64,000 bases of DNA from Diphasiastrum complanatum (Eukaryota > Streptophyta > Lycopodiopsida > Lycopodiales > Lycopodiaceae), in the NCBI GenBank assembly GCA_029204225.1, contig CM055102.1, positions 48,454,870 through 48,518,869 of the forward strand, written 5' to 3'. Shown here piece by piece: positions 3,231 through 58,818 of the stretch; the first letter of the stretch is position 1, and the number at the start of each line of letters is the position of its first letter. The position numbers and the translations under genes were made by a program. The notes beneath the pieces were generated by a model, which saw only the letters and a list, made by a program, of their open reading frames with translations, made no database searches and had not been told where the DNA came from.

Positions 3231-3307
3231 TCTTCCAGTTTCAGATCTTGGCTTGGTGCATATTCATTCTACTGAAACCAGTGTCAAAGTGTCCACGAAC
3301 CTGGCGT

Positions 3308-4098
3308 CGTTTGGTCGAAATGACCTTTTGTCCCGGAGAGAATGCAATTCGAGCACATGAAATGGACCACTTTTTCATCTTTTTGTCCGAAGGTCTAGTT
3401 TCTCCGAAAGAAGTCCATTTCAAGTGTCGTCTATTCCTGGTAGTGGGAAAATTTGAGGGGAACTCATGGAAATAGATAGGACGACAAATAGACTTGTGGG
3501 GTTCCTGGGACCTACGTTTGAAGTTCGACCTAGAAAAGGGCTTTAGAGACACTTGGCCGATAGGGACTTGGAAGTGTTCTGCATAATCCAGAATGCGCAT
3601 TTCAAGTGTTGTCTATTCTGGGCAGTGGAAAACTTTGAGGAGAATCCATGGGGACTAACAAGATGACGAACGGACTTGTGGGGTGCCCGAGACCTACGTT
3701 TGAAGTTCGGCCCGAAAAAGGGCTTTAGTGAAGTTGGTCGATCGGGACCTTGAAGTGGTTTTCATAGTCCAAAATGTGGGACAGGGGGTTGTCCACGGGC
3801 TCGTGAACCTGACACGAACCAGGTAGATCGATTCATATACAGTTCCAACATTGTTTGGTCGAAGCATCCCTTCATCCAGGAGAGAATACAATTAGGGAAC
3901 ACGAAATAGACCACTTTTGCATCTGTCCATCCGATGGCCCAGTTTCTTCAAAAGGGGTCTGTTTCAAGTGCCATTTGTTCCTGGCAATGGGCAACTTTGG
4001 GGAGATCTATGGGGATAGACAAGACGACGAACATACTTCTGGGGTGCTAGGGACCTACGTTCGAAGTTCAGCTCGAAAAAGGGCTTCAAGGAGACTTG
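3308..4098. repeat. Degenerate nested direct repeats
   Basis: The phrase GTTTGGTCGAA...GGAGAGAAT(G/A)CAATT occurs near 3308 and again near 3854, giving a ~546-bp period. Inside this, a ~140-bp module running from TTTCAAGTG to a GGGCTT...CTTGG phrase occurs three times, at about 3415-3555, 3599-3736 and 3960-4098. The modules are clearly homologous but diverged, and no frame is conserved across them. They end just before the reverse copia LTR at 4.3 kb. Confidence 0.8.
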
Positions 4099-4334
4099 GG
4101 ATCTATTCTTGCATCAAATGGTTTATCTACAAACCATATGTTCAAAGAGTTTACACATGTCCAATCTGAGTCGAATTGGATTTCCACCATACTCATCTTT
4201 TGGAAACAGAATAGTTGCATTTTTTATTATACCATGTTACTTAGATTGTTGCGAAACTTTGTCATTTTCGTTTTCGTATTCACGAACGATTTTGTGTCTT
4301 TGAATCTTCTTTTGCGCGGAAGCTTCACAGGAAC

Positions 4335-4830
4335 CTAGACACGTGACTACACATCATAGAACACATTCTATTCTAGCAATCAAGATAAACGACACAAGAC
4401 AAGGAGATACACAAAAATAGAACAACTGTATTATAAGTTTAATTTTTAGAGCGAGATCATCAGTGTCTTGCTCGTTGGTAGAATGACACTTTGCTCTTTC
4501 GTTGTGTTCTGCTCGTTGGCAGACTTTCATGCACAGCTCTTTCGTTTTTAGTATTTTTCTTTTCTGCTCTATTCTCTACGTCTCTCTCTATCTCTTATAG
4601 AAAAACTGTCTATGCTTCTTCTATATTTTTATGATCTAGAAAGGATAGTTTATGTCTCCACTGTGTGGAGTTTACAAGATAGCTAAACGCGGAATCACAA
4701 GACTAGTTAATGCTAATCAATTAATCGGTTACTCTCCATTGTCGCACTCGTTTCAGTTGGGCATGAAGTCTACGACTCCAAGCTCGTTGGACTGCCAGTG
4801 GCAGCGCGAAAAAATTTCCTTCATTTGTTT
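4335..4830 (-). repeat. 3' LTR of copia copy A1 (boundaries approximate)
   Basis: This sequence is homologous, in reverse orientation, to the forward LTR at about 29.6-30.05 kb. Shared landmarks are the AT/GA-rich GAGAGAGA tract, GCATGAAAG, GCCAACGAGCAGAACA, GAGACACTGAT-like and TCGTGTCGTTT-like phrases, in the same order. Outer ends are approximate because no 5' LTR of this family is present. Both copies end in TAGG followed by a TCCT-like phrase, so the end may not be a canonical CA. Confidence 0.6.
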
Positions 4831-4837
4831 CGTTCAT

Positions 4838-7017: not shown

Positions 7018-7482
7018 AGGACTGGGAACTTGGGATCTATACTTGCTTGACTCAAATTAGGCTTGCTTTGGCAGGATCTAGAGTTTTTTAAATGGGTGAG
7101 GTCATACAATGGAAATTGGAAGAGTTATTCAAGTCTTTCTCTTCTTTAGTGTTATTTTTTTTGTGCTAACACTGAGTAATGGAGGAATTTGAAGTTTTGG
7201 ATCAAATATTATAGCATGGATTTCCTTCACTGGCATTGTTTCTTGAAATCACTAATGTTGATTTCCTTTAATACCTTGACATTGTCCAATGTTGGTAGTC
7301 CATCATGTTGCACCATTTGCTCGTGATAGTTTCTTGCTCCTTGCTCTAACTTATGAACTACCTGAATTACTCTCTCATTGTCTCACATCTTTCTATTGTA
7401 TCTCAGGGAATGAAAAATTTGCACTGACGCACTCTCTCTATACACTTCATTTGAAACAAAAAACAAGAGTGCTAGAATAGGA
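7018..7482. other. Unassigned spacer between retrotransposon fragments
   Basis: AT-rich sequence between the truncated copia (left) and a reverse gypsy integrase fragment (right). I see no domain, LTR terminus or repeat copy that I can place. Confidence 0.4.
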
Positions 7483-7869
7483 CTACATGCAAAAGCGAAA
7501 AGGTACACCTACAAATAAGTAGAAAACACCAAGAAAAGAAAAATAAATAGAATAAGGAACATCCAAGGTGGCCAATTGCATTGTGCCATTTTCATATATC
7601 TTTGTGACCTTGTAGGGTCTTAAACAAAAAAATTTCAATTTGCCTTTCATGACCTTGCTCTGATACATTAGAGCTAAGTCACCCTTATATAAATCTTTTT
7701 GTTTTAGAACATTGTCTTGCCAAGCCTTATGTCGTTTCTTTTTAGTGTGCAGGACATGCAAGGCGATTGATCTGGCTTCACATGAATCTATAAGTAAGCC
7801 TAAATTACGAGAATGTGCAGTATCATTTAATATCATCGCAAAGCCAATAAAAGTCCCCAGTAATTGCAT
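7483..7869 (-). pseudogene. Ty3/gypsy integrase C-terminal fragment
   Basis: The reverse frame encodes a segment typical of the end of gypsy integrase. A charged helix (HTKKKRHKAWQDNVLKQKDL) is followed by the GDLALMY block and the small SH3-like fold ending KGKLKFFCLRPYKVTKIYEN then GTMQLATLD. The family consensus is similar: a GDLVLMYD-like block, then KGKL...GPYKV..I..NGS..L. The integrase core is absent, so this is a fragment. It abuts a forward-oriented PPT-LTR at 7902, which indicates rearrangement or nesting. Confidence 0.75.
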
Positions 7870-7901
7870 CTCACAGGTATTGTGGGACCGCCACCAGTTT
7901 T

Positions 7902-8350
7902 GGTGGGGGATACTGTTGAAGGGTCCGCGGATCCCAAGGCAATCCTAACCCTAGTTAATAAGTGAGAGGGATTTGGCACCTTGGATGTGTAAGTCCAATC
8001 CGATGATCACATAGTTATTTGATTAGTTACAAGTCAATAAAAGGACTTTAGGCCTTTTTGCGAGACTTTTAATGTCGCAGGGCCTAAATGTCAAGTTAGT
8101 GTATAAAGTTGGGTTTCCCTCCAATTTGAATGGTTTCCACTCTTTTTTAAATTTGAATAATTAGGGAGACAGAAATGGACCAATAGGATTCAGAGGCCAG
8201 GGTCCTCCTCTCTACTATAAAAAGGCACCAACTCGAGTTTCTACACATGTTCATTTCTTCAATTCAATAAATCAGATTGGTTCTCTTGTGAAATGGATTG
8301 ATGAATGTCCTTGCTCTCTATCACTTTTTCTCCATCTCTCATGTTCTCTT
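7902..8350 (+). repeat. Forward LTR with preceding polypurine tract (3' end unresolved)
   Basis: GGTGGGGGA at 7902-7910 looks like a polypurine tract. The sequence from 7914 starts TGTTGAAGGGTCCGCGG, typical of an LTR start. A TATA box (CTATAAAAAGGC) lies near 8213, and an AATAAA-like phrase follows near 8268. The right-hand CA end could not be fixed. Orientation is opposite to the neighbouring gypsy integrase fragment, so this is probably a solo or truncated LTR. Confidence 0.5.
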
Positions 8351-9273
8351 TGGATTTTGCTAATTGTTGCATCTGATTGTTATTGGGATTGCATGTTATT
8401 ATACTTTTTATGAGGGAGAAAGGGAGAGAGAAAAAAAGTAAGCTATCTTATTGTGGATCTAGTGTTAGTGGATGTAGTGTTAATGCTTAGGATTAATGGA
8501 TGTTAGAGTTAGATGTGGATCTTCCATTCATACTGAAATCTGAACTATATTATCGCTCTTATGGGAACAAATCTATGCGTGACAAGTAACTTCATCCCTT
8601 TGATGCTAGATTGATTAGATCTTGGACTGAGGTTAGGCAAGGAAAGAAATCCACTACAGTGTGAAGGCTTGCTGGATAATACACAGCTCGTGGATGTACT
8701 TGATCTATAAAGGGATCAAGCAAATCAATGAGAAGTTGATGTGACATTGGCATGGTGACAAGATACATGTAAAAGAACATAGAATCATAATGAAAGGATT
8801 CCTCCATGTATCCACCTTTGAATTCTCTGTAAAACAGCAGCAAATAAGTTGTAAGGGAAAGTAACCAACAAGTGTTTGCATGCCTCCTCCATGCATGTAC
8901 TTGATCATAAAAAACAGCAATGATAACTATTCCATCTCCAAGATCCAAAGGATGCAAAATTATGGAACTAGTTTCATTGAATTTTGACAATTCCAACACA
9001 TTGACGTGACAATGTTTATAGATGAGATTAAACAAGTAAGGTAGAGTAAAAGGACACTTCCTTGCTGCTCCAAGAACCTTACTTGAACCTTCAAGAACCT
9101 GTAAAAAACATATCCAAAATTCTTAGCCCATGTGTCTCCCCTTTGATCCTTTTGATTAGCTTTCAATTGCTACTTGCCTCTTAGGGTTGATGAAGCAATT
9201 CAAGATCAACATCTTGATCTTCCAATAAAACATCAAGGACTTTGCATTTATAGACATCTTTAGATCTGAACCT
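8351..9273. other. Unassigned sequence left of the copia-derived element E
   Basis: A reverse ORF of 147 codons (8592-9035) has no recognisable domain. It contains a phrase (HPLDLGDGIVI) faintly like one in the ORF at 10003-10710 (DPLDLEDGLVL), so it may be a decayed part of the same element. Nothing else is supported. Confidence 0.3.
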
Positions 9274-9987
9274 CTAAAGATACTCCCTCTCAAACACATG
9301 ATTAACATCCCACAAGATCTCATCATTGCTTGATTTCAACCTTTCACTATAGTTAGTAGAAATAATGTCACCATCATAAACCAAAAGATAGATTTCTACA
9401 ATTCTATCCAACATGAAGTAGAGTAGATGAAGTTGAGTATCAAATCTAATCAAACCAGCCCATTTGACTTCAAACCGAACCTCAATGAGCTCACCAATGA
9501 GATCTTCCTTGCCTTGAAGAAATTGCCACTTGACTTGCTCCATGTAGTCTTCTTCATCCAACCTTTTGCCATCTTGATCATGCATGAACACTTCACCACA
9601 ATCATAGCAGCCTTTGAGTTGATGAAGAAATGTAAGATCCATGCCTTGGATCTTCCCAAGAGTCACTCTTACTTTTCTCTTTCCTTCACAAGACTCCCTC
9701 TTAATGATCACACCACAAAAGTTAGCAATCTCCCTCTTGATAGTTGCATCATAAGAAATGGAAGAATCTCGAACATTAGAAGCCATGAAAAGAATACATA
9801 GTACCTTCAACATAAGAATAATTGAAGTACTTTTTCTTGTCAAACCTGGACTTCTAAACAATGATATAGGTAATGATAATGAACCCTCACTATCATTCAC
9901 AAAAGCATCATTCAAAGTACATCCTTGTTTGAGCACTTCACATTCATATCTCCCTTTTGACTTGAGATCTTCCTCACCGAGTCTCAT
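9274..9987 (-). CDS. Atypical 237-aa ORF with decayed copia RT-like segment
   Basis: The C-terminal part resembles the copia reverse-transcriptase active-site region: LHLLYFMLDRIVEIYLLVYD continuing GDIIST. The canonical Tyr-Val-Asp-Asp has become Tyr-Asp-Gly-Asp, so no polymerase activity is expected. The last codons (EREYL) read through a purine-rich GAGAGGGAG tract, just as the intact copia pol at 31162 ends in its polypurine tract. The first ~190 residues match nothing I recognise. A Cys pair (GCYDCGEVFMHDQDG) is visible near residue 130. Confidence 0.4.
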   Translation of the reverse strand: MRLGEEDLKSKGRYECEVLKQGCTLNDAFVNDSEGSLSLPISLFRSPGLTRKSTSIILMLKVLCILFMASNVRDSSISYDATIKREIANFCGVIIKRESCEGKRKVRVTLGKIQGMDLTFLHQLKGCYDCGEVFMHDQDGKRLDEEDYMEQVKWQFLQGKEDLIGELIEVRFEVKWAGLIRFDTQLHLLYFMLDRIVEIYLLVYDGDIISTNYSERLKSSNDEILWDVNHVFEREYL

Positions 9988-20834: not shown

Positions 20835-21211
20835 CATTAGAGGAGTTCTAAATCCAAAAAAGACCCTTTGTAAAGATTCTTTTTATATTTTTTCTCAATT
20901 TTGTCCTACACATGGACCAATCAAAACACTCAAATTTGAAAATTACGTAACGTAACTTTTTGAGTCCACATTTTGATTCCACACTAAAAATGGCATAACG
21001 TTTTAGTGGTAGGTCCAAATTTAGTGGAGTTTGGTGCATTGAAAAGAACTCAACAAGGGCTTTCCAATAATATGTTACATGGCTACTTCTAAGCTACAAT
21101 TAAAAAGTTATGGCAAGTCAAAAGTATTAGTGTTATGATATTTTAATAATATAAACTACATTTTGCACGAATTCTTATGGGGTCTTTTTGAAGCTCAAAA
21201 CTCTTCTAATG
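20835..21211. mobile_element. Miniature TIR element A (377 bp), MITE of the B/C family
   Basis: The left end reads CATTAGAGGAGTTCTAAATC and the right end, read inward, CATTAGAAGAGTTTTGAGCT. Both continue into AAAAAGACCC. These are the same termini as the 3.8-kb (47690) and 5.95-kb (52868) elements. The subterminal CCAATCAAAA and TACGTAACGTA phrases are also shared with their left ends. There is no coding capacity. No target duplication is evident (left flank CTTTC, right flank ACTTG). Confidence 0.85.
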
Positions 21212-30048: not shown

Positions 30049-30533
30049 AAATTTCGCAAGCTAGCCAAAGTCGTAGCACACAAGGGAGCAGACAGAAGAA
30101 CTGCCTCCAAACACTCCCACAAAATTCTACAAAAAGAACTCTATTCCACATGAGTAAATAAAATATTTGGAAAATCTTTGAAGGAAATATTTTCACATTC
30201 ACAAATTCTCCAACCAATAGAGATCCAACCACTGGAGTCTTCATCCAAGGTATTAAAGGTAGCCTTAGTACAATCTGACCCACTCTCTCAAAAGAAGACA
30301 ACAATAGAGATATCCGAGGAACATAGACAAGATCAAGCATTGTGAGCCATTGCTTGCAAATTCCTCTACTCTCTAGTTCTTGATATTCTTGGGGTGTCCA
30401 AGATTCAAGAGATGTGTGTTTCTTGATTCTTGGACTTTCAAAATGTTGTCTAGTTACTTTAGTTTGTTGCTTTGTTTCTTGCATTTAGAATGTGTATGTT
30501 AGCTTAGTTTTCAGATTTCAAGAACCTGTCCAT
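30049..30533. other. Flanking sequence left of element H
   Basis: No gene is supported; a 146-codon reverse ORF lacks domains. Part of it (a TCTTGATATTCTTGGGGTGTCC phrase near 30380 and TTTCTTGATTCTTGGACTT near 30420) recurs near 59130-59190, so it is itself dispersed repeat sequence. It ends with TCCAT, the target duplication of element H. Confidence 0.5.
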
Positions 30534-31166
30534 TGTGAAAGATTTCAGATCCTTAAGATCCAATCTACTTGAATGATCTTTGGTTAGAAAGAGAAATACA
30601 CTACCAATCTCACCAATGTAGAAAAATCAGCATCTACACACAATTTGAGATGCAAACACTAATAGAACTTGATCAAACTTGAATGAAATGATTATGTATT
30701 GTTTCTGTTCGTACAAAACCAGCGAGCTACTGTATTTCACATGTGTGGATCCAAAAATAACAAATATAGATTTGCAAGCAATCACCAAGATAGTGCACCA
30801 ATGGATAGTAGAACCCAAGAGAACCATGTAAAGCATGAAATGAGATAGATAAGAGAGAAGATCACTCTCTCCACGAGTTACATCCTTTTATAGCAGGTCC
30901 AAACCCTATTTGGCCACTTGGCTTTCCCACCAAAATGCTAACCCTACCAATTTTGGGTCTAGATTCAATGTACCCAACTTATTCAAATTGAATCTACTCA
31001 AACTCGCATTCTATCTTTCCCACACTTTCAAAAAGTGTTTATTCAAATGAAATTTAGACTAATGAACTTTGAAAAGTCAACCTCTAAGTCTAAAACAAGT
31101 TTTGGCCTCAATATGCCAAATATGGAAATATTGCAAAATGTGATGAAACTAGTTAAATCTTTCACA
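30534..31166 (-). repeat. 3' LTR of element H (633 bp)
   Basis: In reverse orientation it starts TGTGAAAGATT and ends ATCTTTCACA. A TATA box (GCTATAAAAGGATGTAACTC) lies in the middle. On the right it abuts CTCCCTCTTC, the polypurine tract. It aligns throughout to 34950-35599. Confidence 0.93.
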
Positions 31167-34100
31167 CTCCCTCTTCAACTAGTTTTAGCATAGACTTTGA
31201 TAATACTCCAAGTGAAGTCCTATGCTTCATGAACAAGTCTTTTCCCAATGCTTTGGTGAAGATATCAGCTACACATTCCCTTGAAGACACATGTTGAAGC
31301 TCCACCTCCTTTGCAATGACTCGCTCCCTCACAAAATGATATTGTATCTCAATATGCTTGCTCCTAGCATGAAAGATAGGATTGGATGCCATTCTTTGGG
31401 CTGATTGATTGTCACAAAAGATGATTGGTCTCTCTGAAAAATCCAGCAAGTGAAGATCCTTGATCATCCTCTTGATCCATACCATCTCCTTTGTGCAATG
31501 TGTAAGAGCTTTGTACTCAGCCTCACTAGATGACAATGAGATAGTGGCTTGTTTCTTTGACATCCATGATATAGCTCCATCACCTATGAAAATACAATAA
31601 GAACTAATGGATTTCCTATCCATTACATCTCCAGCATAGTCCGAATCTGAAAATCCAAAAAGATTAGGTGATGATCCCTCATACAATATGCCAAAATCTC
31701 GAGTTCCAATGATGTACCTCAAAACTCGCTTTCCTAGCTTCCAATGCTCCTCACTAGGATCTTGCATGAATTGACTCAATCTTCCAACACAATAGCTTAG
31801 ATCAGGTCTAGTAATGGTTAGATAGATGAGTGAACCAACTAGCTTTCTATAGAGAGTAATGTCCTTGAAGGATCTTTCATTACCTCTTATAGTAAGCTTT
31901 ACATGAGACTCCATAGGTGTATCAATAGCTTTTGTATCTACCATATGAAATCTTTCTAGAATAGAATTAGCATACTTCTCTTGACAAATGAAAGTAGATT
32001 GAGAAGATCTAATGACTTCTATTCCTAAAATGTAATGTAAATTACCAAGATCATGCACCTCAAACTCCTTCTTAAGAGCATTCTTGATATCCTCCACATC
32101 TTGATTGTCTCCACCACTCAAGATGATATCATCTACATAGATTAGCAAGATGGTAACATCATTTTCAGCAAACCTATAATAAAGTGAATGATCATACTCA
32201 CTCATAACAAAGCCTTGAGAGAGTAAAAAAGTGTTAAGCTTAGCATACCAACTCCTTGGTGCTTGCTTAAGGCCATACAAACTCTTTTGTAGAAGACACA
32301 CATAGTTTGGCTTTGTTGATGAGATGTAGCTCTCGGGTTGCTCCATGTATAGTTCCTCCTCAAGATCACCATTCAAGAATGCATTTGAAATGTCCATTTT
32401 CCATAGATCCCATCCATAAAGTGTAGCAAGTGAAATGATGACTCGAATGCTTACCATCTTTGCCACGGGTGCAAAGGTCTCATCATAGTCAATTCCTTGT
32501 TGTTGAGCATATCCTTTTGCCACTAACCTTGCCTTGTACTTGTTGATAGATCCATCTTGGTTTGTCTTCACCTTGAAGATCCATTTGCATCCAATAGCTT
32601 TCTTGTCCTTAGGCAACTCCACCAATCTCCATGTTCCATTCTTCATAAGAGCTTGATACTCAAGATCCATTGCTTGGATCCACTCCTCTTCTTTCCTTGC
32701 TTGATCTACACTTGTAGGCTCATCCAAAGAGGTTAGGAAAGCAACATAATTTCCAGAAACTACTTGCTTACCCTTTTGATCATATGTGAGCCTTGAAGGT
32801 ACTTGTCTTTCTCTTGATGTTCTCCTTGGCTTTTGACTTGATGAAGGTCCATCATCACCACCATCCAAAGTAGGATCCTTATCATCAACATCAAGAATGT
32901 TAGAACTATCTACTTTACCATCAATCATGCTTGAAGACACCTTTGGAATGTTTCCCTCATAAAAAATGACATATCTACCAACAATCACTTTGTTAGTAGA
33001 AGGAATGTAAACCTTGTAGGCTTTACTCACCTCACTATATCCAACAAAAATACCTCTTCTTGAATATGGATCCTCCTTGGTCCTATCATCAAGAGTAATG
33101 TTGACATAGCATGTGCATCCAAAGGTTCTTAGAAAGTTGACACTCGGCCTCCTCTTGAATAGCATCTCAAAAGGTGTCCTTCCATCCAAAATAGCACTCG
33201 GCCACCTATTGCACAAGAAATTGGCACACAACAAAGCTCGATCCCAAAATGGTTTGTCAAGATTAGCACTTAACCTCATAGCTTTGACACTTTCACATAA
33301 AGTTCTATTCTTCCTTTCAGCCACACCATTTTGTTGTGGAGTCCTTGATGTTGTATACTCCCTCTTGATCCCATGCTCATCACAAAAGGCCTTGAACTTG
33401 TTAGATATGTACTCACCACCATTGTCACCTCTCAAGCACTTGATCTTTGTGGAGAATTGGTTCTCCCTTGCATTCTTGAACTTGACAAAGACATCATACA
33501 CTTCATCCTTGCTCTTTAGTAGATAGATCCAACAAAATCTACTAAAATCATCAATGAATGTTACATACATCTTAGCTCCACTATTGCTAATTGTAGTAAA
33601 TCCATGAATATCCGAATGTACAAGTTGAAAAGGCTTTGTAGATCTAGTATAAGGTAGTCTATGTGACTTAGACAAAGCACAAGACTCACAAACATGCTTG
33701 TAATTACTTAAGAAACTTGGAAGACCAATCCAATGACTTGAAGTTGAGGTGTCCCATCCTTTTGTGCCAAACCTCTTGAATAGAAATTTGCTCCCTTGCA
33801 ACACATCCAACTTGGTTAGCAATAACACAAGCATCAAGTTTGAACAACTTCCCTTGCCTTTTACCTTTTCCAATCAAGACGTCCTTCCTTTTGATCAAAC
33901 AAGCATCTCCATCAAACTCCACCTTGAGGCCCTTACTTAGCATTTGACTCACACTAAGCAAATTCTTGGTAATAGATGGAATAAACAAGACATCCTCCAG
34001 ATGAACATTCCTCTTTGTAGAGAGAGAAATAGGAATTGTGCCAATCCCTTTGATTGCACACTCACCATCATTGGCCGTGTAGATCACACTCTTGTCATCT

Positions 34101-34345
34101 CCATATGCCAACAAAGAAGTGAAGTACTCTTTGTGAAAGGTCATGTGTGAACTTGCTCCACTATCAATCCACCAAGGATCTAGATCTCCATCATTAGCAA
34201 GCATACATGAAGACATCACAAAAGCATCATCATTTGCATCTTGCACATCCAAACCATCCTCATCAAGAGTAAGATTACCTTGCTTGTCTCCTTGATCTCT
34301 CACAACTGATTTCTGCTTTCTTGATTCCACGAGATAGGTCCCCCT
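31162..34345 (-). CDS. Copia pol of element H: protease, integrase, RT, RNase H, one frameshift
   Basis: The best-preserved polyprotein in the window. The protease piece (34345-33710) has WWIDSGASSHMTF and the pre-integrase HKRMGHLNFKSLDW. A single frameshift near 33710-33735 leads to a 903-codon frame. That frame holds integrase (CESCALSKSHRLPY, HSDIHGF, DDFSRFCWIY, RGDNGGEY, PQQNGVAERKNRT), RT (GCKWIFKVKTNQDGSINKYK, YGLKQAPRSW, LIYVDDIILS) and RNase H (FSDSDYAG, SSSEAEYKAL, FCDNQSAQRMA, then DIFTKALGKDLF). All catalytic acidic residues appear present. The stop lies inside the polypurine tract (KLVEEGV). Probably a young copy, disabled by the frameshift and by loss of gag linkage through the inversion. 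Confidence 0.9.
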
Positions 34346-34949
34346 GCCAGAAAAAAACAAAACCCCGAAGTGGATTTTCTGGTTGAGGCATTTCCTCCTT
34401 GCGGTGTTGTGTTAGCACGTAAAAATAGTAGGTGCTGCCTTTGTAGTTTTCAGTGTGTTTGTTGCCAACCGTATTTGGATTACATTTGAACCGTAAAAAG
34501 GTCCAAATGATGTTGAAGAGATTAAAGGTGGCCAGACCTTCAATGTACTTCAGATTCTTGACATTCAAATATTGAAATAAATCAGGATTGGTTGCTTTTT
34601 GATCCGGACTTTGGTCCATGAGCAGAATCTCATGTACTTCACCAGGTGAAAGTCTGCATCCAGAAATAGAGTAGTTTTGTAGGTTTGCGTCTGTGTTAAA
34701 AAAAAAACACGACCAAAAATGCAGGTAGCAAAATAGAGATTTATAATTTCTATAGGTATCAGACAATAAACCAATAAAAGGAGTGTTGGAATTAAAAGAC
34801 ATGGGGACCAATCAAGTGTATTCATGAAAGTATGCTGACACATGCATAAATAGACAAAACATGTAAACCAATGCGTTCAACCATAAAATCAGCACGCAGT
34901 CTAGTTGAACAATGAATCCTACTTCTAACTACTGCAAAATCGAAATGGA
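34346..34949 (-). other. Inverted flank of element H with an exon-like ORF
   Basis: This lies between the protease breakpoint and the forward LTR. It must be the original 5' flanking DNA of the insertion. A reverse frame (about 34700 to 34400) reads SISGCRLSPGEVHEILLMDQ, then YLNVKNLKYIEGLATFNLFN and IIWTFLRFKCNPN. It is preceded by a T-run and ACAG that could be a splice acceptor. It reads like a cellular exon, but I do not recognise the family. It ends with ATGGA. Confidence 0.4.
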
Positions 34950-35599
34950 TGTGAAAGATTCAACTAGTTTCATCACATTTTGCAATATTTCCATATTTGG
35001 CATATTGAGGCCAAAACTTGTTTTAGACTTATAGGTTGACTTTTCAAAGTTCATTAGTCTAAATTTCATCTGAATAAACACATTTTGAAAGTGTGGTAAA
35101 GATAGAATGCGAGTTTGAGTAGATTCAATTTGAATAAGTTGGGTACATTGAATCTAGACCCAAAATTGGTAGGGTTAGCATTTTGGTGGAAAAGCCAAGT
35201 GGCCAAATAGGGTTTGGACCTGCTATAAAAGGATGTAACTCGTGGAGAGAGTCATCTTCTCTCTTCTCTATCTCATTTCATGCTTATACATGGTTCTCTT
35301 GGGTTCTACTATCCATTGGTGCACTATCTCGGTGATTGCTTGCAATTCTATGTGTAGAATGATCTATATTTGCTATTTTTGGATCCACACGTGTGAAATA
35401 CAGTAGATTGCTGGTTTTGTACGGACAGCAACAGTACATAATCATTTCATTCAAGTTTGATCAAGTTCTATTAGTGTTTGCATCTCAAATTGTGTGTAGA
35501 TACTGATTTTTCTACATTGGTGAAATTGGTAGTGTATTTCTCTTTCTAACCAAAGATCATTCAAGTAGATTGGATCTTAAGGATCTGAAATCTTTCACA
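34950..35599 (+). repeat. 5' LTR of element H, inverted relative to pol (650 bp)
   Basis: TGTGAAAGATT...ATCTTTCACA, homologous to 30534-31166 in opposite orientation. TATA box GCTATAAAAGGATG near 35223. Followed directly by the PBS. Confidence 0.93.
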
Positions 35600-35611
35600 T
35601 GGTATCAGAGC
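35600..35611 (+). promoter_or_regulatory. Primer-binding site of element H
   Basis: TGGTATCAGAGC directly after the LTR end TTTCACA, an exact initiator tRNA-Met site in forward orientation. Confidence 0.94.
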
Positions 35612-47689: not shown

Positions 47690-47959
47690 CATTAGAGGAG
47701 TTCCAAAATGAAAAAAGACCCTTTGTAAAGATACTTTTATTTTTTTTCTCTAGTTTCGACCGTCACCAGGCCCAATCAAAATGCATAGATTTTGAAATCT
47801 ACGTAACGTAGTTCAAATTAACTGAGAAATAAAAATATAATATAGAAAACTTTGAAATTTGTGTCCGGGCAGCATGGACTTATCCTATTGGTTTCTTCTT
47901 CCTGCCCGACACATGCTAATCTGCCCGATGTCAATACCTCAAGTTAAATCTACTTAACT

Positions 47960-49450
47960 ATGTTGGTTAGTACAATGAAATTTGATAACCATACTAGTTA
48001 CAGTTATTTAAAATATGGTATACACAGTAACTGTGACTATGGTGGCATTCACATTAGATTAAATGTGATACAAAAATTTAAAATTAAGTATTATATCAGA
48101 GAGATTTTTGGCGCCAAAGCTTTGAAAATAGCAATGGCAAGGAAACCCAGATTTACAGTCGAGTCTGTGATTCTTTACAATGAGAAAGATGAAGCTGATA
48201 ACTGGAAGCCAACAAAATATACGAAAATTCATGGGTGTTGCATCATCAAAGGGCAATTTCCGACAAAAGAAAAGAGCAAAAATGACATACAAATCTTATT
48301 GGAAAACAAAAATTCTAGAGTTTAAGACTACTTCGAGAGGTCAATCAATATCAGAAGTTTTAGTACAACACGTATATATGCATTCAAAAATCAAAGTACA
48401 TGATATCAATCATCATGATCATCGAAAATGTAATTGTAAGTATATCAAAACATATGCACTCTACAACAATCATAGGTGATTTTCTTTATTGATGCTCTTC
48501 AGATTATGATTTAAATGCTTCAACATTGTTTTTTTCTTTCAGATTTATATCCATCATGCATAAGTGAATGGGAGCCAGCACAATCACTTGTAGGAATATT
48601 GAACGTTATTCACTCTGATGTTGGAAAGCTGCAATACAGAGGAAGAAGTCCAAAGGAACTTGTAGATTGTGGTATCTAGTTTTATGAATCTTTATATACG
48701 CCACAAATGGATGGAGGTTTTGGCAAGTTCGAAGCATCCATTGCCTAGTTTTCAGAGTGATGAGTGGCCTACTCCTGACAGTATTGTTTTTAAATCCTTG
48801 AGACGCAAGCTACTCATTGATATTAGAAATGCTATGAAGATAAGCACAGGTTCGAAAATTGTTCACCTAAGTTGGTTTATCTCATTACATATATTTGTTG
48901 ATTTTTTCTGGAGTACTAGTGTTCGTAGAACACCAACTTTATTTGTTTGCAAGGATTTATCAGATGAGACTTTGTCAGATCTCATGAATCAAGGCTGGGA
49001 TAGTAAAACAAATAATGACATAGAATGCAAGATTAAAAAGTCTTCAATGATCTTTCGTTATCATATCGAAAAGCAAATGCTCAATCTCACATTTAGCTAT
49101 CAGAGATACAAGAAAATTGAAGGTACATGGCTACCACTGGATCAAGACTTTGAACTAAATGGTCACACAGACCGAATGGAGATAAGCATTATCTACAATG
49201 AAGAATATTTGACTATGGTTGAGGTGGAAGAGCATTGGAAGCTTGATTTTATCATAACAGAGCTCATGCTATTACAAACCAATATACCAACATATTTCAG
49301 ATTTATCATCAACAGAAAACTCATAAGTACTTTATGTTTATTGCCATTTCAAAATAGTACAAAAAAATAATTGAAAATGACATAATTTACAATTGCACAT
49401 TCACTAATATTTGTCATGTCACATATGCGAAAAAGACAGGAGCTGATAAC
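47960..49450 (+). pseudogene. P1 gene copy in element B (degraded)
   Basis: Same three-exon layout as the copy in element C: exon 1 to 48435, intron 48436-48542, exon 2 from 48543. Lesions not shared with C are an 8-base loss in exon 1 near 48225, a stop in exon 2 (GGTATCTAG near 48673), a 2-base deletion near 48740, and mutation of both splice sites of intron 2 (donor GTAAGT to ATAAGT near 49323, acceptor AG to AT near 49424). Most of exon 2 still reads well (SDEWPTPDSIVFKSLRRKLL, FRYHIEKQMLNLTFSYQRYK). Confidence 0.8.
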
Positions 49451-49689
49451 GTGCTGCAAAGATCTACTTACAACAATCACCATATGGAAGAACAATAGCT
49501 TCAAATAAAGTTTAGTACAAATCTGTATATAGACTTTTTCATTCAATCAATGCAAGCCCAAGTTGGGCATCAATACATGTATTTTGTGTTCCCAAATTCA
49601 TAAAATGGAACAACATATGATATACCAATGTATATTTCTCTATGAATTCTATACATGTGCAATCTATTTCTATTCTATGCTATTTGTAT

Positions 49690-50258
49690 TGTTCTAATCT
49701 TTAATTAGTATAATTACATCATCATTTGCACCATCATCAAGAACGGGAGGCTGAAGCCTTGCCCTGGCCAATATGCTTAGGATAATTTCTTGTCTAAATC
49801 TATACACCTGACTTGATGTGTGCTCAGGAAGTGTAAACGGCAAGATAGAACATTCATGTATTAGTAATGGCTAAAAACATCAACAAAATAGAAAACTAAT
49901 CACGATTTCAAAAATAAGAATAAACAAAATTAATTACTTTAGATATATCAACATCTTCCTGAAGGTTGAACCACTCAAAAAATAACTTTGCATTATATAA
50001 TGTGTACCACCCACAGCTGAATGAATCATTTTGTTGGGGTGACTGCAAAAAAATTTAGCACACAAGAAAGCAATTAAGAAACTGAATGAATTAGAATGAA
50101 ACAAATACATTAGAATACTCAAAATGTTGTTAAGAAAGATAGAATTTATCTCCAAACTAACGATCTGCCAGTCCATTGAATGGGGAACATCTGTTGGAAT
50201 ATATTTACTTAAATATGGCAAGTATATATCTACATCCTCATGCGTATTGCTGGCCAAT
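49690..50258 (-). pseudogene. C-terminal exons of the Ulp1-like protease gene in element B
   Basis: The reverse strand carries the last exons. One reads SNTHEDVDIYLPYLSKYIPT, the next contains the cysteine motif region (SPQQN.SF.CGWYTLYNAKL), and the last reads FTLPEHTSSQVYRFRQEIIL, continuing SILARARLQPPVLDDG. The last exon is in frame here, unlike in element C, where one base is lost. The exon with the catalytic His is truncated at the rearrangement near 50258. Confidence 0.7.
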
Positions 50259-50260
50259 TA

Positions 50261-50999
50261 CTGAAGGATGTGGAATTGGCAAAGAAGAAGGCTAGAAGTA
50301 AGAAGCGAAAGTGACAAAGTTGCAAGGATATTCAAATACTTTCAAAAGGAGGTTATCAATATAGAAGGATCCGTGCATTTAAGTAAGCATATTCTGATTT
50401 TTGTAAGTTTTTCAATGACATTTGGATTTAATTTTTTCAATAAGAATAGATTGTAAGATTGATTGCATTTGCTCTAGTTCTGATTTGATATTGATTGTTA
50501 TCTTCTGTAATGATTCATTATTTTTTTTAAATTGTTCATTTTCTTCTAACGTCTTTTGGAGATGACAATCTCTATTCTGACAATAAGAGGATACCCGAAT
50601 TAACTCACCTTTTAAAAAGTGAATTCTATTCATATAAAGTTGTTTTCCATGGTTCTGCAATCTTTCACAATATCCTAGTAATCCACTATGCCCATTGCAT
50701 ATCCATGTAACTAAATGAGTTATTGAGGAGAATGTGGGATGTGTCAAAGTGCTTGGATCTTGTGGATATTATGTTCCATCTATCGACAAATCCAAGTTTT
50801 TCTCTTCTTTTCCCCTGTAACACAAACAATTCTTAGCAGATATTTGAATTCCTTTGCCTCCTCTTCTCTGCAAAGGTGCCAAATCAATAGGGATATCCAC
50901 ATGTAGATGATACAATGTTGTCATCATAAAAAACAATAGAGTAATCAGTTGCATCAAAGTACTATGAACAGATTCTATGAAGCAAAACAAAATACTCAT
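50261..50999 (-). pseudogene. Coiled-coil ORF remnant in element B
   Basis: Reverse pieces read LYHLHVDIPIDLAPLQRRGG, a stop after SIDGT, then THPTFSSITHLVTWICNGHS and a coiled-coil segment (LQKTLEENEQFKKNNESLQK...). The part equivalent to KDVDLAKKKAESKKRK in element C is present but inverted (forward strand 50261-50450). Confidence 0.65.
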
Positions 51000-51492
51000 C
51001 TTTGATACTTTGTATGATCAATCCAATCTCCATGCTTGTAAGCTTGATTCAAATTTGGAAATGCCGCTGATTTTTTCATTCCAATAGGTAGTTGGTGCTC
51101 ATATTTCCATTCTAATGTGAAGATGGCATTCATAATTGGAGATGGCACCCATATTTTCATTCTTGTGGAAGGAATGCATATGTAAATATTTTGCTATTTT
51201 TCCTGATTCGAATTTGGGGATGGCGGTCATATTCTAGATCCAGTGAAAATATCGTCCTTTTCGTAACCAATGGAGGGAATATTTTTGAATTTAGTCAAGT
51301 TATACTACGAACTGTTTACAGTTCTTAACTGCGACTATAGACACTATGGTTAGATCATTGGGAGTTGGGGGGGCCTCGGGGGTGGTGGGGGCAAGCATAT
51401 AAACAATATTGTTTTTTTTTATCTTGATATTTTTCTATATCCTACATGGCATTTCTTAAAGGGTCTTTTTGATATTGAGAACTCCTCTAATG

Positions 51493-52867: not shown

Positions 52868-53190
52868 CATTAGAGGAGTTCTCAATATCAAAAAGACCCT
52901 TTGTAAAGATACTTTTATTTTATTTTCTTTAGTTTCGACCGTCATCAGGCCCAATCAAAATGCACAGATTTGAAATCTACGTAACAGAGTTCAAATTAAC
53001 TAAAAAATAAAAATGCAGAAAACTTTGAAATTTGTGTCCAGGCAACATGGACGTATCCATTGGTTTCTTCTTCCTGACCGACACGTGCTAATCTGCCCGA
53101 CGACAATACCTCAAGTTAAATTTACTTGACTATGCTGGTTAGAATAATGACATTTTCTAACTATACTAGTTATAGTTATAGAAATATAGT

Positions 53191-54700
53191 ATGTATAGTT
53201 ACATAAAATATGGTATATGCAGTAACTGTGACTATGTTGGCATTCACATTAGATTAAATGTGATACGAAAAATTGAAATTAAGTATCATATCAGAGAGAT
53301 TTTTGGCGCCCAAGCTTTGAAAATAGCAATGGCAAGGAGACCTAGATCTACAATCGATTCTGTGATTCTTTACAATGAGAAAGATGAAGCTGATAACTGG
53401 AAGCCAACAAAATATACGAAGAACTCATGGGTATTGTTGCATCCATCATCAAAGGGCAATTTTCGACAAAGAAAAGAGCAAAAATGACTTACAAATCTTA
53501 TTGGAAAGCAAAAATTTTGGAGTTTAAGACTACCCCGAAAGGTCAATCGATATCAGAAGTCTTGGTGCAAAATGTTTATATGCATTCAGAAATCAAAATA
53601 CATGATATCAATTCTCATGATAATCAAAAATGTAATTGTAAGTATATCAAAACATATGCACTCTACAGCAATCATAGGTGATTTCCTTTATTGATGCTCT
53701 TCAGATTATGATGTAAATGCTTAAACATTGTTTTTTTCTTTCAGATTTATATCCATCATGCATAAGTGGATGGGAGCCCACACAATCACTTGCAGGAATA
53801 TTAGACGTGATTCACTCTGGTGTTGGAAAGCTGCAATACAGAGGAAGAAGTCCAAAGGAACTTGCAGATTGTGATATCTATTTTTATGAATCTTTATATA
53901 CGCCACAAACACATGGAGGTTTTGGCAAGCTCGAAGCAATTCCATTGCCTAGTTTTCAAAGTGATGAGTGGCCTACTCCTGACAGCATTGTTTCTGAATC
54001 CTTGAGATGCAAGCTACTCATTGATATTAGAAATGCTATGAAGATAAGCACGGGCTCGAAAATTGTTCACCTAAGTTGGTTTATCTCATTGCATATATTT
54101 GTTGATTTTTTCTCGAGTGCTAGTGTTCGTAGGACACCAACTTTATTTGTTTGCAAGGATTTATCAGATGAGACTTTGTCAAATCTCATGGATCAAGACT
54201 GGGATAGTAGAAAAAATAATGACATAGAATGCAGGATTAAAAAGTCCTCAATGATCTTTCGTTATCATATTGAAAAGCAAATGCTCAATCTCACATTTAG
54301 CTACCAGAGATACAAGAAAATTGAAGGTACATGGCTATCACTGGATCAAGACTTTGAACTAAATGGTCACACAAACCGAATGGAGATAAACATTATCTAC
54401 AATGAGAAATATTTGACTATGGTTGAGGTGGAACAGCATTGGAAGCTTGATTTTATCAGAACAGAACTCATGTTATTACAAACCAATCTACCAACATATT
54501 TCAGATTTATCATCAACGGAAGACTCGTAAGTACTTTATGTTTATTGCCATTTCAAAATAGAACAAAATAATAAAAAATGTCATCATTTACAATTGCACA
54601 TTTACTAATATTTGTCATGTCACAGATGCGAAAAAGACAAGAGCTGATAACGTGCTGCAAAGATCTACCTACAACAATCACCATTGTGGGAGAACAATAG
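53191..54700 (+). CDS. P1: three-exon gene of unknown function in element C
   Basis: Exons: about 53191-53637, 53745-54526 and 54626-54700; introns of 107 and 99 bp with GTAAGT donors and CAG acceptors, and frame kept at both junctions. The product is roughly 400-430 aa. Exon 1: IREIFGAQALKIAMARRPRS, ILYNEKDEADNWKPTKYTK, MTYKSYWKAKILEFKTTPKG. Exon 2: YPSCISGWEPTQSLAGILDV, SFQSDEWPTPDSIVSESLRC, FVCKDLSDETLSNLMDQDWD, WKLDFIRTELMLLQTNLPTY. Exon 3: MRKRQELITCCKDLPTTITI before a TAG stop. One single-base deletion near 53463 breaks exon 1. No DDE, zinc-finger, HUH or recombinase motif is evident. The start could be the Met at 53191 or at 53329. Conservation in B supports a real gene. Confidence 0.65.
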
Positions 54701-54899
54701 TTTCAAATAAACTTTAGTATAAATCTGTGTATACACTCTTTCATTCAATAAATGAAAGCCCAAATTGGGCATCTATACATTTATTTTGTGCTCCCAAATT
54801 CATAAACTGGAGCAGCATTTGATATATCAATGTATATTTTTCTATGAAGTCTATACATGTACTTTTGTTCTATGCTATCTATAATTTTTTTTATCTTAA

Positions 54900-55890
54900 T
54901 TTAGTATAACTACATCATCCTTTGCACCATCATCAATAATGGGAGGCTGAAGCCTTGCCCTAGCCAGTATACTCAGGATAATTTCTTGTCTAAATCTGTA
55001 CACCTAGCTTGATGTGTACTCAGGAGTGTAAACTGCAAAATAGAACATTCATATATTAGTAATGGCCAAAAACATCACCACAATAGAAAACTAATCATGA
55101 TTCCAAAATAAGAATAAACAGAATTTATTACCTTAGAAATATCAACATCTTGTTGAAGGTTGAACCACTCTAAAAACAACTTGGCATTGTATAATGTGTA
55201 CCACCCACAGTTGAATGAATTATTTTGCTGGGGTGACTGCAAAATAATTCAGCACACAAGAAATCAATTATGAAACAAAATGAACTAGATTGAAAATATT
55301 TCATTAGAATACTGATTTCAAAATGCTATTAAGAAAGACAAAGTTTACCTCCAAACTGACGATCTGCCAGTCCACGAAATGGGGAACATCTGTAGGAATA
55401 TATTTACTTAGATATGGAAGGTATATATCTACATCCTTATGTGTATTTCTCGCCGAATTCATCTTGACACAAAAACCTTCAATAATATTATTTACAGATC
55501 TCTTAATAGAGATCAGGTTTAAACTGTAGTGGTCACTGCAAAATAAGATTAAAATTTCTTTAGCTGCAATTTTGAGAACTATTTCCATTGACAATGCCAA
55601 TGTTAATGCATAAAACAGCAAGAAACTTTTAATATATCTTACTTTGTATGATAAGGTATGAGCAGATACTTTGTTGCTGGTGTGAATCCACTTGTCAGAC
55701 ATTGTGACAATGTGTCATTGTTCTCCTTGAAGGCCTGAAGCAGAAAGTTACTTAGCACCAGCAACTCATTTGATAAATCTCTTGCAATGTCATATTGCAA
55801 GAGTGTAAGCCCGGACTCTATCACAAGATCACTAATAGGAGCCGGTCTGACTTTGAGATCCAAGCAATCTATAACTCTAAAATTAATACT
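54900..55890 (-). CDS. Ulp1-like (C48) cysteine protease gene in element C
   Basis: Reverse-strand exons: a first one from about 55890 to 55643 (FRVIDCLDLKVRPAPISDLV, then LTLLQYDIARDLSNELLVLS), 55535-55349, 55236-55132 and 55032 onward, with GT-AG introns and matching phases. Exon 2 starts NDHYSLNLISI, fitting the catalytic His block (HW.L.VI). Exon 3 reads SPQQNNSFNCGWYTLYNAKL, fitting the catalytic Q..(N)..(D)CG motif. The expected Asp position reads Val-Lys-Met instead of Asp-Ser-Met, so activity is doubtful. The last exon has a one-base loss relative to B. Ulp1 proteases cleave SUMO conjugates; plant transposons are known to carry Ulp1 domains. Confidence 0.75.
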
Positions 55891-55975
55891 AAAATCAACT
55901 TCATCTAGTCTAAAGCAAAAAGAGTACCAATATCTATAGCATCGGATATGTCTTTCTCAAATTTAATCATCCGAA

Positions 55976-55977
<2 letters not shown>

Positions 55978-56051
<74 letters not shown>
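55978..56051. repeat. (TA)n microsatellite inside element C
   Basis: A pure TA run of about 74 bp between the protease gene and the H3-like exon. It creates a meaningless Tyr-Ile tail on the reverse H3-like ORF. Confidence 0.95.
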
Positions 56052-56055
<4 letters not shown>

Positions 56056-56059
56056 GGAG

Positions 56060-56483
56060 GAGGAGGAGGTGGTGGATGTGTAGTATCTATAGCAATTGAA
56101 GGGGTATTTAAAACAGAGGTAGCTATATTTACAGCATTATCAACAACAGTGTTATCTACAATGGATTCTGGGTTAGGGTTCACAGAATCTGAAGGGTTAG
56201 GCTTCACTTTCTTAGGAGCACGCTTGGGGGCTGTTTGCTTCCTAGGATGCTTCATAAGAAGATCAGTCCTATCTACAAGAGTTGGTCTAGGAGCAGCAAG
56301 CTGAGATACATGTAACCTACAATACCTATCCCTCATCCTCTTCAGGAGCTGAAAATCCTTGGGCATTATGGTAACCCTCTTGGAATGGATGACAAGCAAA
56401 AAGTAATCCTCAAAAAAAAGACTAATGTAATCTTCATCAGCCTCCTGAAGGCACTGAAGAGCATTGGGTGTGAATCTAACCAG
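56060..56483 (-). CDS. Histone H3/CENH3-like exon in element C
   Basis: Starting at 56483, after a TTCACAG acceptor, the reverse frame reads LVRFTPNALQCLQEADEDYI, SLFFEDYFLLVIHSKRVTIM and PKDFQLLKRMRDRY. It aligns with helices 2-3 and the C-terminus of histone H3 (RF...A...LQEA..Y...LFED....IH.KRVTIMPKD.QL..R.R), including an identical 9-mer KRVTIMPKD. TPNAL...ADEDY and KDF recall CENH3. Past the H3 end the frame continues for ~80 residues with a basic stretch (KHPRKQTAPKRAPKKVKPNP). The N-terminal tail and helix 1 are not found upstream, so this is one exon of a gene or a captured fragment. The frame has no stop until 55977. Confidence 0.8.
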
Positions 56484-57266
56484 CTGTGAATGTACGATAT
56501 ATCGGACCTGTGCGATCCGAATATCAGAGATAACGATTAGTTTTGAGGAAAGACGCACAAGTGCGATATGGGGTGACACGTAGGCAGACGTATCGGACTT
56601 GTGCGCATGGAAGGCGGTAGGAGGAATTTCGATTGTGAAGGATGCGCACAAGTGCGATATGCGGAGCCTAAAAAAAAGTAAAAAAAATTCATCGAAGTTT
56701 GTGATTTTATATCGCGGTTCACACGTGCGAAAGTACGTCATGTCACATGTGTGGGAGTTGTATGGACAAATGCAAGAGTGACACGTGTCACCCTATCACA
56801 TCACATGTGTGGGATTTTTATGATCAAATGCGAGAGTGACACGTGTTGTTGATCAAACGAATGAACATGCGACACATGTCTAGGTGTCATTTCACACGTG
56901 TGTTGGTGTCACCTCACACGTGCCTGCGCCTATAGTCCAATTGAAAGTTGACACATGTCCTAAGTCCGTTGACCGCCACGCTCATTCCACGAACACAAAT
57001 AAATGCTCATCACACTCTCTCCTCCTCCTTCACAATCCTGCAAAAATTTAGTATAAATGGCACGAAAACCGATTTATTTTTTACCTTTTCCGTTCTCATA
57101 ATTCGCGGCATATCGCTCTTGTGCGCGCTCATTGCCTTCCATTTGCCTGCAACTATAGCGATATTCGGTATTTGCCTGTCGTACAGATCCCTCTTGTGCG
57201 CCATTTTGATAGTTAGTTTTGGTTCAGTTCTCCCTCGTGCACAAGTGCGATATTCACGTTACTGCC
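56484..57266. promoter_or_regulatory. Motif-dense intergenic segment of element C
   Basis: The 15-mer GCACAAGTGCGATAT occurs exactly at 56555, 56646 and 57239 and, with one or two changes, in reverse at 56503, 56590 and 57110. Between them lie many CACACGTGTG/CACATGTGTG-type palindromes (56715-56930). It separates divergent ORFs (H3-like on the left, reverse; 57267 ORF on the right, forward), so a bidirectional regulatory region or protein-binding array is plausible. Confidence 0.5.
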
Positions 57267-57401
57267 ATGGCCTCTTCCTCATCATCCTCACAAGATTCAA
57301 GCTTGAGTTTGTTTCTTTGTGAATTTGGGATTATTGAAAATCTAGACTATTTCCACAATCTATTCAGGCCATATCTACATGTTTTCACGACTGCACAATG
57401 A
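57267..57401 (+). CDS. Small ORF or first exon in element C
   Basis: ATG at 57267 in a good plant context (GCCATGGCC) opens 44 codons: MASSSSSSQDSSLSLFLCEF, then GIIENLDYFHNLFRPYLHVF. A Ser-rich start followed by a hydrophobic/aromatic stretch. It could be the first exon of a gene captured with the H3-like segment, but no further exon was found. Confidence 0.3.
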   Translation: MASSSSSSQDSSLSLFLCEFGIIENLDYFHNLFRPYLHVFTTAQ

Positions 57402-57447
57402 AATTCTAACGTATTTTATGACCATTATGTCAGATTCAGAAATATAC

Positions 57448-58294
57448 TTAGTAAGCATGTTTTTTCCATAGGTCCACTCCAGTACATGCATTATACTGAT
57501 CTTGTTCATTTAATATTGTGCCCAATGGCATTCCTTGTGAAGCATTGTCTTTAATATTCTGAGGAGCTACTAATGCAGATCTGCAAAAAAAAACAGATAG
57601 TAAAGAGAATATCACCATAGCTGAAATTAAATCCAAATGTCATTGAAAAACTTACAAAATTTAGAAAATGCTTACTTGAATGCACGGATCCTTCTATTTC
57701 GATAACCTCCTTTTGAAAGCATTTGAATATCCTTGCAACTTTGTTGCTTTCGCTTCTTACTTTCAGCCTTCTTCTTTGCCAAATCCACATCCTTCAATAA
57801 TTGTAAGTTTTCAATACGAATAGACTGTAAGACTGATTGCATTTGCTCTAGTTTCGATTTGATATTGATTGTTATCTTCTGTGATGATTCATTATTTTTT
57901 TTAAGTTGTTCATTTTCTTTTAACGTCTTTTGGAGATGACAATCTCTAATCTGACAATAAGAGGATATCTGAATTAACTCACCTTCTAAAAAGTGAACTT
58001 TATTCATATAAAGTTGTTTTCCATGGTTTTGCAATCTTTCACAATATCCTAGTAATCCACTATGCCCATTGCATATCTATGTAACTAAATGAGTTATTGA
58101 AGAGAATGTGTCAAAGTGCTTGGATCTTGTGGATATAATGTTCCATCTATCCATAAATCCAAGTTTTTTTTTCCTTCTGCCCTGTAACGAGAACAATCCT
58201 CAACATATATTTGAATTCCTTTGCCTCCTCTTCTCTGTAAAGGTGCCAAATCAATAGGGATATCCACACGTAAATGATATATTGTCATCATCAA
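57448..58294 (-). CDS. Coiled-coil protein gene in element C
   Basis: Reverse frames: an N-terminal part (IYHLRVDIPIDLAPLQRRGG, then KGIQIYVEDCSRYRAEGKKN), a break near 58108 where 7 bases present in B are missing, and a coiled coil (MQNHGKQLYMNKVHFLEGEL, LKENEQLKKNNESSQKITIN, DLAKKKAESKKRKQQSCKDI). An intron with GTAAGC donor (about 57674) and GCAG acceptor joins to the last exon SALVAPQNIKDNASQGMPLG...DLWKKHAY, with a stop at 57448. It may be the N-terminal half of the Ulp1-like gene, separated by the 1.5-kb H3-like segment, or an independent gene. Family unknown. Confidence 0.55.
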
Positions 58295-58818
58295 AAAAAT
58301 AATAGAGTAATCAGTTGCATCAAAGTACTATGACCAGATTCTATGAAGCAAAACAAAATACTCATCTTTGATTATATTATATACTATGTACAATCAATCC
58401 AATCTCCATGCTTGTATGCTTGATTCAAATTTGGAAATGCCTCTCATTTTTTCATTCCAATAGGTAGTTGGCGCTCATATTTCCATTCCATGGAAGGAAT
58501 GCATATGTAAACATTTTGCAATTTTTTCTAATTCAAATTTGGGGATGGCGGTCATATTCTAGATCCAGTGAAAATATTGCCCTTTCCGTAACCAATGGAG
58601 GGTTTTTTTTTGAATTTAGTCAAGTTATACTACGAACTGTTAACAGATCTTAATTGTGACTGTAGACACTGTGGTTAGATCATTGGGAGTTGGGGAGGCC
58701 TTGAAAGTGGTGTGGGCAAGCAAATAAACAATATTGTTTGTTTTTTATTTTGATATTTTTCTATATCCTACATGGCATTCCTTAAAGGGTCTTTTTGATA
58801 TTGAGAACTCCTCTAATG

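Follow-up and report, generated by a model that had tools for sequence, protein, structure and literature searches.

A 64,000-nucleotide stretch of the lycophyte Diphasiastrum complanatum genome (GenBank assembly GCA_029204225.1, contig CM055102.1, positions 48,454,870 to 48,518,869; hereafter the window) contains a mobile element, Element A, which on alignment to a full-length relative is a copy of a ~9.4-kb D. complanatum DNA transposon made non-autonomous by internal deletions. The family is a high-copy four-gene transposon of this species and inserts without target-site duplication (TSD, 0 bp). Its genes were designated P1, H3-Ulp1, P3 and gene 4. The reading favoured here, which is probably correct, is that Element A is a deleted copy of a four-gene TSD-less transposon in which gene 4 would encode a transposase of the CACTA/Transib/RAG1 type and H3-Ulp1 a chromatin-directed protease. 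The lineage is real and abundant and, as far as the literature search reached, undescribed.

The perfect 35-bp terminal inverted repeats (TIRs) reported at the ends of Element A in a first-pass annotation of the window were confirmed, with the two arms 5881 nt apart (Table 1). Relative to the 9371-bp family copy L022, A is internally deleted, being without element positions 3507-3817 and 4800-8053, and would be mobile only with help from other copies. The host genome (1.74 Gb in 5176 contigs) was searched using the left 533 bp of A as a query, giving 2176 first-look candidates, 40 of which were scored (94-100% identity), and 20 family copies were retrieved for comparison. The TIRs carried no mismatches in 13 of these 20 copies and 1-4 in the remaining seven. 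Both TIRs were found end to end in L022, L026 (9324 bp) and L015 (9016 bp), and much of the L022 layout was shared by L018, L023, L024 and L025 within the 9.5 kb seen, the remaining copies being deleted, interrupted or ending outside the retrieved stretch. The full-length layout comprises P1 (+), H3-Ulp1 (-), P3 (+) and gene 4 (-) between 35-bp TIRs ending in CA..TG. The collection of copies suggested in the first-pass annotation thus placed all four genes in the full-length L022 and found A, as well as a second copy in the window, Element B, to be internally deleted. Element B aligned to A in four pieces (89-93% identical) and is without the region corresponding to A 55460-57623; compared with L022, its middle is gone and a 180-bp segment (element 8165-8344) is inverted at the deletion junction. 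A third member in the window, Element C, has the size of a miniature inverted-repeat transposable element (MITE) and shares 91.5% identity with a 378-bp MITE that lies nested within L024. The ends CATTAG..CTAATG are common to A, B, C, L015, L022, L026 and the L024 MITE. A further copy of A with identical flanks (L009), located ~447 kb away on the same contig, was taken as a segmental duplication instead of an independent insertion because its flanks are the same as those of A. The MITE-sized Element C, the loss from A of its middle with most of gene 4 and the histone fold described below all go beyond the first-pass annotation.

The absence of a TSD was seen in the flanks of seven independent insertions for which both ends are known (A, B, C, L015, L022, L026 and the nested L024 MITE; L009 was dropped as a duplicate), which gave perfect matches of 0 bp in three cases, 1 bp in two, 2 bp in A and at most 2 bp (in an A-tract) in the nested MITE, with no common repeat. 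The nested MITE splits AGCCTAAAAAA|AAG, and its empty site was spanned in 10 of 20 other sequences, gap-free in four (L009, L022, L021 and the window, the latter duplicating L009) and with 1-5 gaps in six. The joined flanks of L015 gave 1001 genome matches at <=3 mismatches, including three exact ones, compared with 0 for the reversed control, and in translation this empty site reads KDLLDVVHTDIYGPMQ, as in a Copia element. At the L024 joint, an ambiguity of 1-2 bases arises from the A-tract; the L015 joint is unambiguous. Comparison of C with 77-78% similar repeats in L012 and L014 also agreed with the absence of a TSD, more weakly, the L014 alignment having a gap beside the joint. Duplication of a TA inside a CATTAATG target was ruled out, as neither the L024 MITE, inserted in poly-A, nor L015, inserted in Copia codons, has such a target at its empty site.

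A second, diverged family was evident from a relative nested in L011 in which the exons of P1 and Ulp1 converge as in the first family. A P0041-like P1 query gave 8571 genome candidates, with the 150 scored showing 91-98% identity. In comparison with the first family, L031 shared 49% identity in P1, 27% in P3 and 30-60%, depending on the piece, in gene 4, and gave no match to H3 or Ulp1 at E <= 0.01, and L032 shared 44-48% in P1, 34-50% in Ulp1 and 39% in H3, with no P3 or gene 4 match within its 10 kb. Taken together, L031 and L032 have the same gene order and strands as L022 (identity 27-60% by gene). The H3 of L032 was above the Pfam cut-off (Histone, 3e-7); no Pfam row was obtained for its 40-residue Ulp1 piece or for those parts of second-family gene 4 and P3 that were scanned. 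L031 has CATTAGGGGATATTAG at its left end; L032 borders on a microsatellite on that side. A gene 4 or P3 match was absent in five of eight further second-family stretches (L033, L034, L035, L038 and L039) taken at guessed positions.

Gene 4 consists of an N-terminal coiled coil followed by three exons with KLDESEI, WHLAGDLKTLKCMYNVSHGATSKHPCLYC and HILRDH..SQGMEKSH, respectively. Using exon b as a query, 11981 first-look genome candidates were obtained; 150 of these were scored, at 90-100% identity. Alignment of the exons of the two families gave 48%, 60% and 61% identity (72/151, 130/217 and 54/89), the best 25-residue window in each exon being that of KLDESEI (22/25), DLKTLKCMYN..CLYC (23/25) and GMEKSH (22/25). 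Three acidic residues (D, D and E) each sit in the most conserved window of their exon; the second D is followed at a distance of 20 residues by the start of the CxxC, and in L015, L030 and L031 the two His of H(4)H precede the E by 25 and 20 residues. In RAG1 the CxxC lies 19 residues after D708 and is followed by H937, H942 and E962, a spacing nearly equal to that of gene 4. RAG1 belongs to the CMCT clade together with EnSpm/CACTA, Mirage, Chapaev, Transib, Plavaka, ESTA and Lanisha, whose transposases have C(2)C and H(3-4)H motifs between D2 and E; most of these lineages have 5'-CA..TG-3' ends, and they are reported with 2-5 bp TSDs (PMC12730594, in the part available). By motif spacing, gene 4 has the D, D and E of this clade with C(2)C and H(4)H between D2 and E. 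Because its acidic residues fall in the best-conserved windows and its CxxC/H(4)H spacing is as in CMCT/RAG1, gene 4 is likely to be the transposase, a putative zinc-stabilised DDE enzyme of the CACTA/Transib/RAG1 kind.

The family was filed as a new CMCT-like DDE transposon lineage. This denotes likeness only, in the CA..TG termini and the CxxC/H(4)H layout; membership is not claimed because a 2-5 bp TSD, a defining feature of the clade, was looked for and the insertions showed 0 bp. A divergent member of an established CMCT superfamily (e.g. EnSpm/CACTA, Transib, ESTA or Plavaka) that has acquired accessory genes would explain the CA..TG ends and the C(2)C and H(4)H motifs, and is rather unlikely given the TSD of 0 bp against the reported 2-5 bp (PMC12730594, same part) and the absence of a CACTA (TNP2) row from Pfam scans of pieces of the four genes, in which rows were taken to E <= 10 (HMMER filters drop most rows >0.1). 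The absence of any Pfam match for gene 4 and the companions H3-Ulp1, ubiquitin-like P1 and P3 also differ from the known members. A tentative but serious possibility is that the family represents a new superfamily of TSD-less lycophyte and moss transposons with a chromatin kit, made up of a transposon-specific H3 variant fused to the SUMO-type protease plus a ubiquitin-like protein, that would remodel or de-SUMOylate chromatin for transposition by a RAG1/Transib-like enzyme joining at blunt target positions. The proposal in the first-pass annotation of an undescribed superfamily or lineage is partly supported: the TSD-less lineage is undescribed as far as the literature search reached, with the basis moved from P1 to the CMCT-like layout of gene 4.

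The reverse gene, previously noted for its Ulp1-like protease blocks, indeed carries the His (DHYSL) and Cys (NNSFNCGW) blocks on the minus strand of A. The Cys exon of A alone gave 20.5 bits in Pfam C48, just under the family cut-off of 20.7 (Table 1), and exons joined from several copies gave 6.2e-10, so that a C48 domain with both blocks is present. The same gene in A also contains a partial histone H3 fold, from 56483 down to ~56330 (Pfam Histone 4.5e-10; PDB H3 3e-11). In L014 and L015 an H3-like tail, a complete H3 fold and the Ulp1 part follow one another in a single open frame, with Pfam Histone values of 1.2e-27 for L014 (profile 27-122 of 122) and 4.7e-24 for L015, and with a PDB match of L014 to H3.3C (2.8e-23), in keeping with a complete H3-type histone fold. 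From these reading frames, the gene is a histone H3 fused to a SUMO-type Ulp1/C48 protease. Loop 1 of the element H3 is one residue longer than in canonical H3; centromeric H3 is marked by a longer loop 1, a similarity that is a lead only. In a search for proteins combining H3 and Ulp1, only two of 916 candidates (P0009 and P0010) bore H3. These two, from ENA contigs (301 and 426 amino acids), have a near-canonical H3 at the C-terminal end and a long low-complexity and unknown N-terminal part, and are another kind of H3 fusion. No report of a transposon-borne H3-Ulp1 fusion was found in the open-licence literature, as judged by title and the start of the abstract. P3, on the opposite strand, is an acidic protein with no library match at cut-off and weak rows only (best 0.019). 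Between the starts of H3-Ulp1 and P3, short repeats around CGCACAAGTGCGATAT occupy window 56500-57265 and are perhaps a shared bidirectional promoter.

The ratio of nonsynonymous to synonymous differences per site (pN/pS) was determined pairwise among copies, with three duplicate pairs excluded and two wrong frames as controls. The values were 0.29 for H3 (controls 0.96 and 1.08; 11 copies), 0.45 for P3 (0.61 and 0.85; 10 copies) and 0.50 for gene 4 exon a (0.66 and 0.68; 11 copies), so that only H3 stands out, P3 and gene 4 exon a doing so less clearly. Plant DNA transposons often capture genes, and H3-Ulp1, which is truncated in A, might be a functionless passenger captured by accident; this is improbable in view of the H3 pN/pS against wrong-frame controls near 1 and of H3 adjoining Ulp1 in the second family too. 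In P1 and gene 4, silent sites differ by ~6-8% between copies. Separately, pS in the H3/P3 middle module (element ~3000-5400; L022, L014 and L015) was 0.15-0.21 compared with 0.06-0.08 in P1 and gene 4, a two- to threefold difference that looks as if modules had been exchanged between subfamilies.

P1, the longest open reading frame (ORF) of A, was confirmed as a spliced forward gene shared with B. It has three exons; the exon 2 ORF lies between GT..AG sites and shares 82% identity with that of B and 94% with P0001, and exon 1 is open beyond the frame break of A in L017 and L027. Of 2933 candidates in a profile search, 47 were relatives at E <= 10, including one from D. complanatum and three from Ceratodon purpureus, none of the 47 having a Pfam domain. 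An AlphaFold2 model of P0016 (a P1; 44 sequences) had a mean pLDDT (predicted local distance difference test) of 73.5, with most of residues 1-118 below 50 and a confident C-terminal part, and Foldseek matched residues 313-396 to ubiquitin-like folds, a comparison that barely tested the rest of the model. The profile and structure comparisons recommended in the first-pass annotation thus yielded no domain by Pfam and a predicted ubiquitin-like (beta-grasp) fold at the C-terminus. Between P1 of A and its nested second-family relative, pS was 0.73 and pN 0.36; therefore selection acted between families. That annotation had also put P1 forward as a transposase or accessory protein. The length of the ORF, the conservation of the family in lycophyte and moss and the between-family pS and pN would suit a transposase, a role now judged very unlikely because the C-terminus of P1 is predicted to be ubiquitin-like and because gene 4 offers a D-D-CxxC-H(4)H-E layout; an accessory role, as partner or substrate, is speculative. 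Scans of viral contigs found no relative of P1 (35 pattern stretches) or of gene 4 (111 pattern stretches).

Two other assignments have very little probability. Insertion of Mutator-like elements (MULEs) produces a 9-bp TSD. A Kaonashi-like MULE with a captured Ulp1 and a missing MURA gene is scarcely compatible with the absence here of a 9-bp or any other TSD, with the CA..TG ends and with the lack of a MULE row at E <= 10 in the Pfam scans, the last in line with the earlier remark that no MURA-type transposase was found; what such an element does explain is the protease, as Ulp1/C48 is known in Ulp1-bearing MULEs (Kaonashi) and in Ginger1 (PMC2836005, in the part available). In Ginger1, however, Ulp1 is the C-terminal part of an integrase-type transposase (same source), whereas in the present element it is joined to H3 and has a gene apart from the candidate transposase. 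A Spy-like element of PHIS, a eukaryotic TIR group known for its lack of TSDs, would share the TIRs and the absence of a TSD for which Spy is described, but Spy targets AAATTT (PMC4482050, in the part available), which the flanks do not match at the sites seen, and the present element has four genes, other candidate-transposase motifs and no PHIS-type Pfam row (E <= 10), making this as poor a candidate. Chromatin-acting proteins proposed to counter silencing are carried by TET/JBP-bearing fungal transposons and SET-bearing HarbingerS (PMC12730594, in the part available), whose enzymes act on methyl marks, in contrast to the histone fold and SUMO-type protease found here.

Several results weigh against the favoured reading of a four-gene transposon with gene 4 as its transposase. 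Among recent copies there was little or no selection signal over controls for the linker and Ulp1 start (pN/pS 0.47; controls 0.50 and 0.96; 15 copies), P1 exon 2 (0.60; 0.64 and 0.68; 20 copies) and gene 4 exon b (0.64; 0.56 and 0.57; 12 copies), and stops occurred in copies of every exon tested (4 to 21 per set). Gene 4 had no library match at cut-off in Pfam and PDB searches, its rows at E <= 10 being chance-like (YabA 0.014, in the coiled coil; PDB superoxide reductase 0.098; a centriole protein 0.79), and its AlphaFold2 model (nine shallow sequences, two exons read through the intron) had a mean pLDDT of 33.9, with no usable fold to compare with the RNase-H fold of CMCT catalytic domains. 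In the second family no retrieved copy has all four genes; L031 has lost the D2 region of gene 4, and L036, the one second-family copy with this region, has Ser in place of the first Cys of the CxxC and three stops.

Under the favoured reading, the gene 4 product would bind the TIRs, excise the element at its CA..TG ends and join these, with a stagger of 0 bp, at phosphodiester bonds that face each other exactly, and Element C and its nested relative in L024 would have moved in trans. More speculatively, the histone fold of H3-Ulp1 might enter nucleosomes, either at the element or at its target sites, and carry a SUMO- or ubiquitin-like protease into them, and this chromatin-directed protease might lift SUMO-dependent silencing or aid integration, with P1, through its predicted ubiquitin-like C-terminus, conceivably serving as its partner or substrate. 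If so, this would be a DNA transposon lineage with a no-TSD outcome unreported for its apparent clade in the available part of PMC12730594, and a transposon encoding histone H3 fused to a SUMO-type protease, making the action of selfish elements on nucleosomes and SUMO-dependent silencing directly testable. Lycophytes, and perhaps mosses, would gain an abundant family with clear annotation marks.

Table 1. Window coordinates of Element A, its parts and the other family members.
Feature	Position	Strand	Remarks
Element A	52868..58818	.	5951 bp; termini CATTAG..CTAATG
Left TIR of A	52868..52902	+	35 bp
P1 exon 1 in A	53329..53637	+	interrupted reading frame in A; fully open in L011
P1 exon 2 in A	53745..54526	+	open, flanked by GT..AG sites
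P1 exon 3 in A	54626..54700	+	has stop; by homology, end of ubiquitin-like domain
Ulp1 last exon	54896..55032	-	frame open in B, broken in A
Ulp1 Cys exon, SPQQNNSFNCGWYTLYN	55132..55236	-	Pfam C48 4.7e-4
Ulp1 His exon, DHYSLNLISI	55349..55535	-	
Ulp1 exon upstream of His block	55643..55905	-	joined to H3 exon in L014 and L015
(AT)n microsatellite within H3-Ulp1 gene of A	55975..56051	.	
H3 fold second half and Pro/Lys-rich linker	56050..56483	-	first half gone in A via 311-bp deletion (element 3507-3817)
P3 start (MASSSSSSQDSSLSLF..)	57267..57398	+	remainder of P3 deleted in A
3254-bp deletion junction in A	57511..57512	.	element 4800-8053; most of P3 and gene 4 gone
Gene 4 remnant in A, N-terminal coiled-coil part	57675..58327	-	
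Right TIR of A	58784..58818	-	35 bp
Element B	47690..51492	.	3803 bp; deleted copy with 180-bp inverted segment
Element C	20835..21211	.	377-bp MITE-like member

Other mobile sequences were observed alongside the family. In L018, oriented positions 8127-9530 contain a further mobile-element-like ORF pair (..VGHTHEDIDALFGHLSEDLR..), putatively of the DUF7869 kind. Window 30530-35602 contains a Copia-like ORF (31162-33873, -) between ~650-bp copies that are 94% identical; these copies (30530-31170 and 35602-34947) are inverted, whereas long terminal repeats (LTRs) should be direct. Direct repeats are present in the window at 16654-17225/19757-20332 (95%) and 15730-16486/62578-63320 (82%), possibly LTRs or other repeats.

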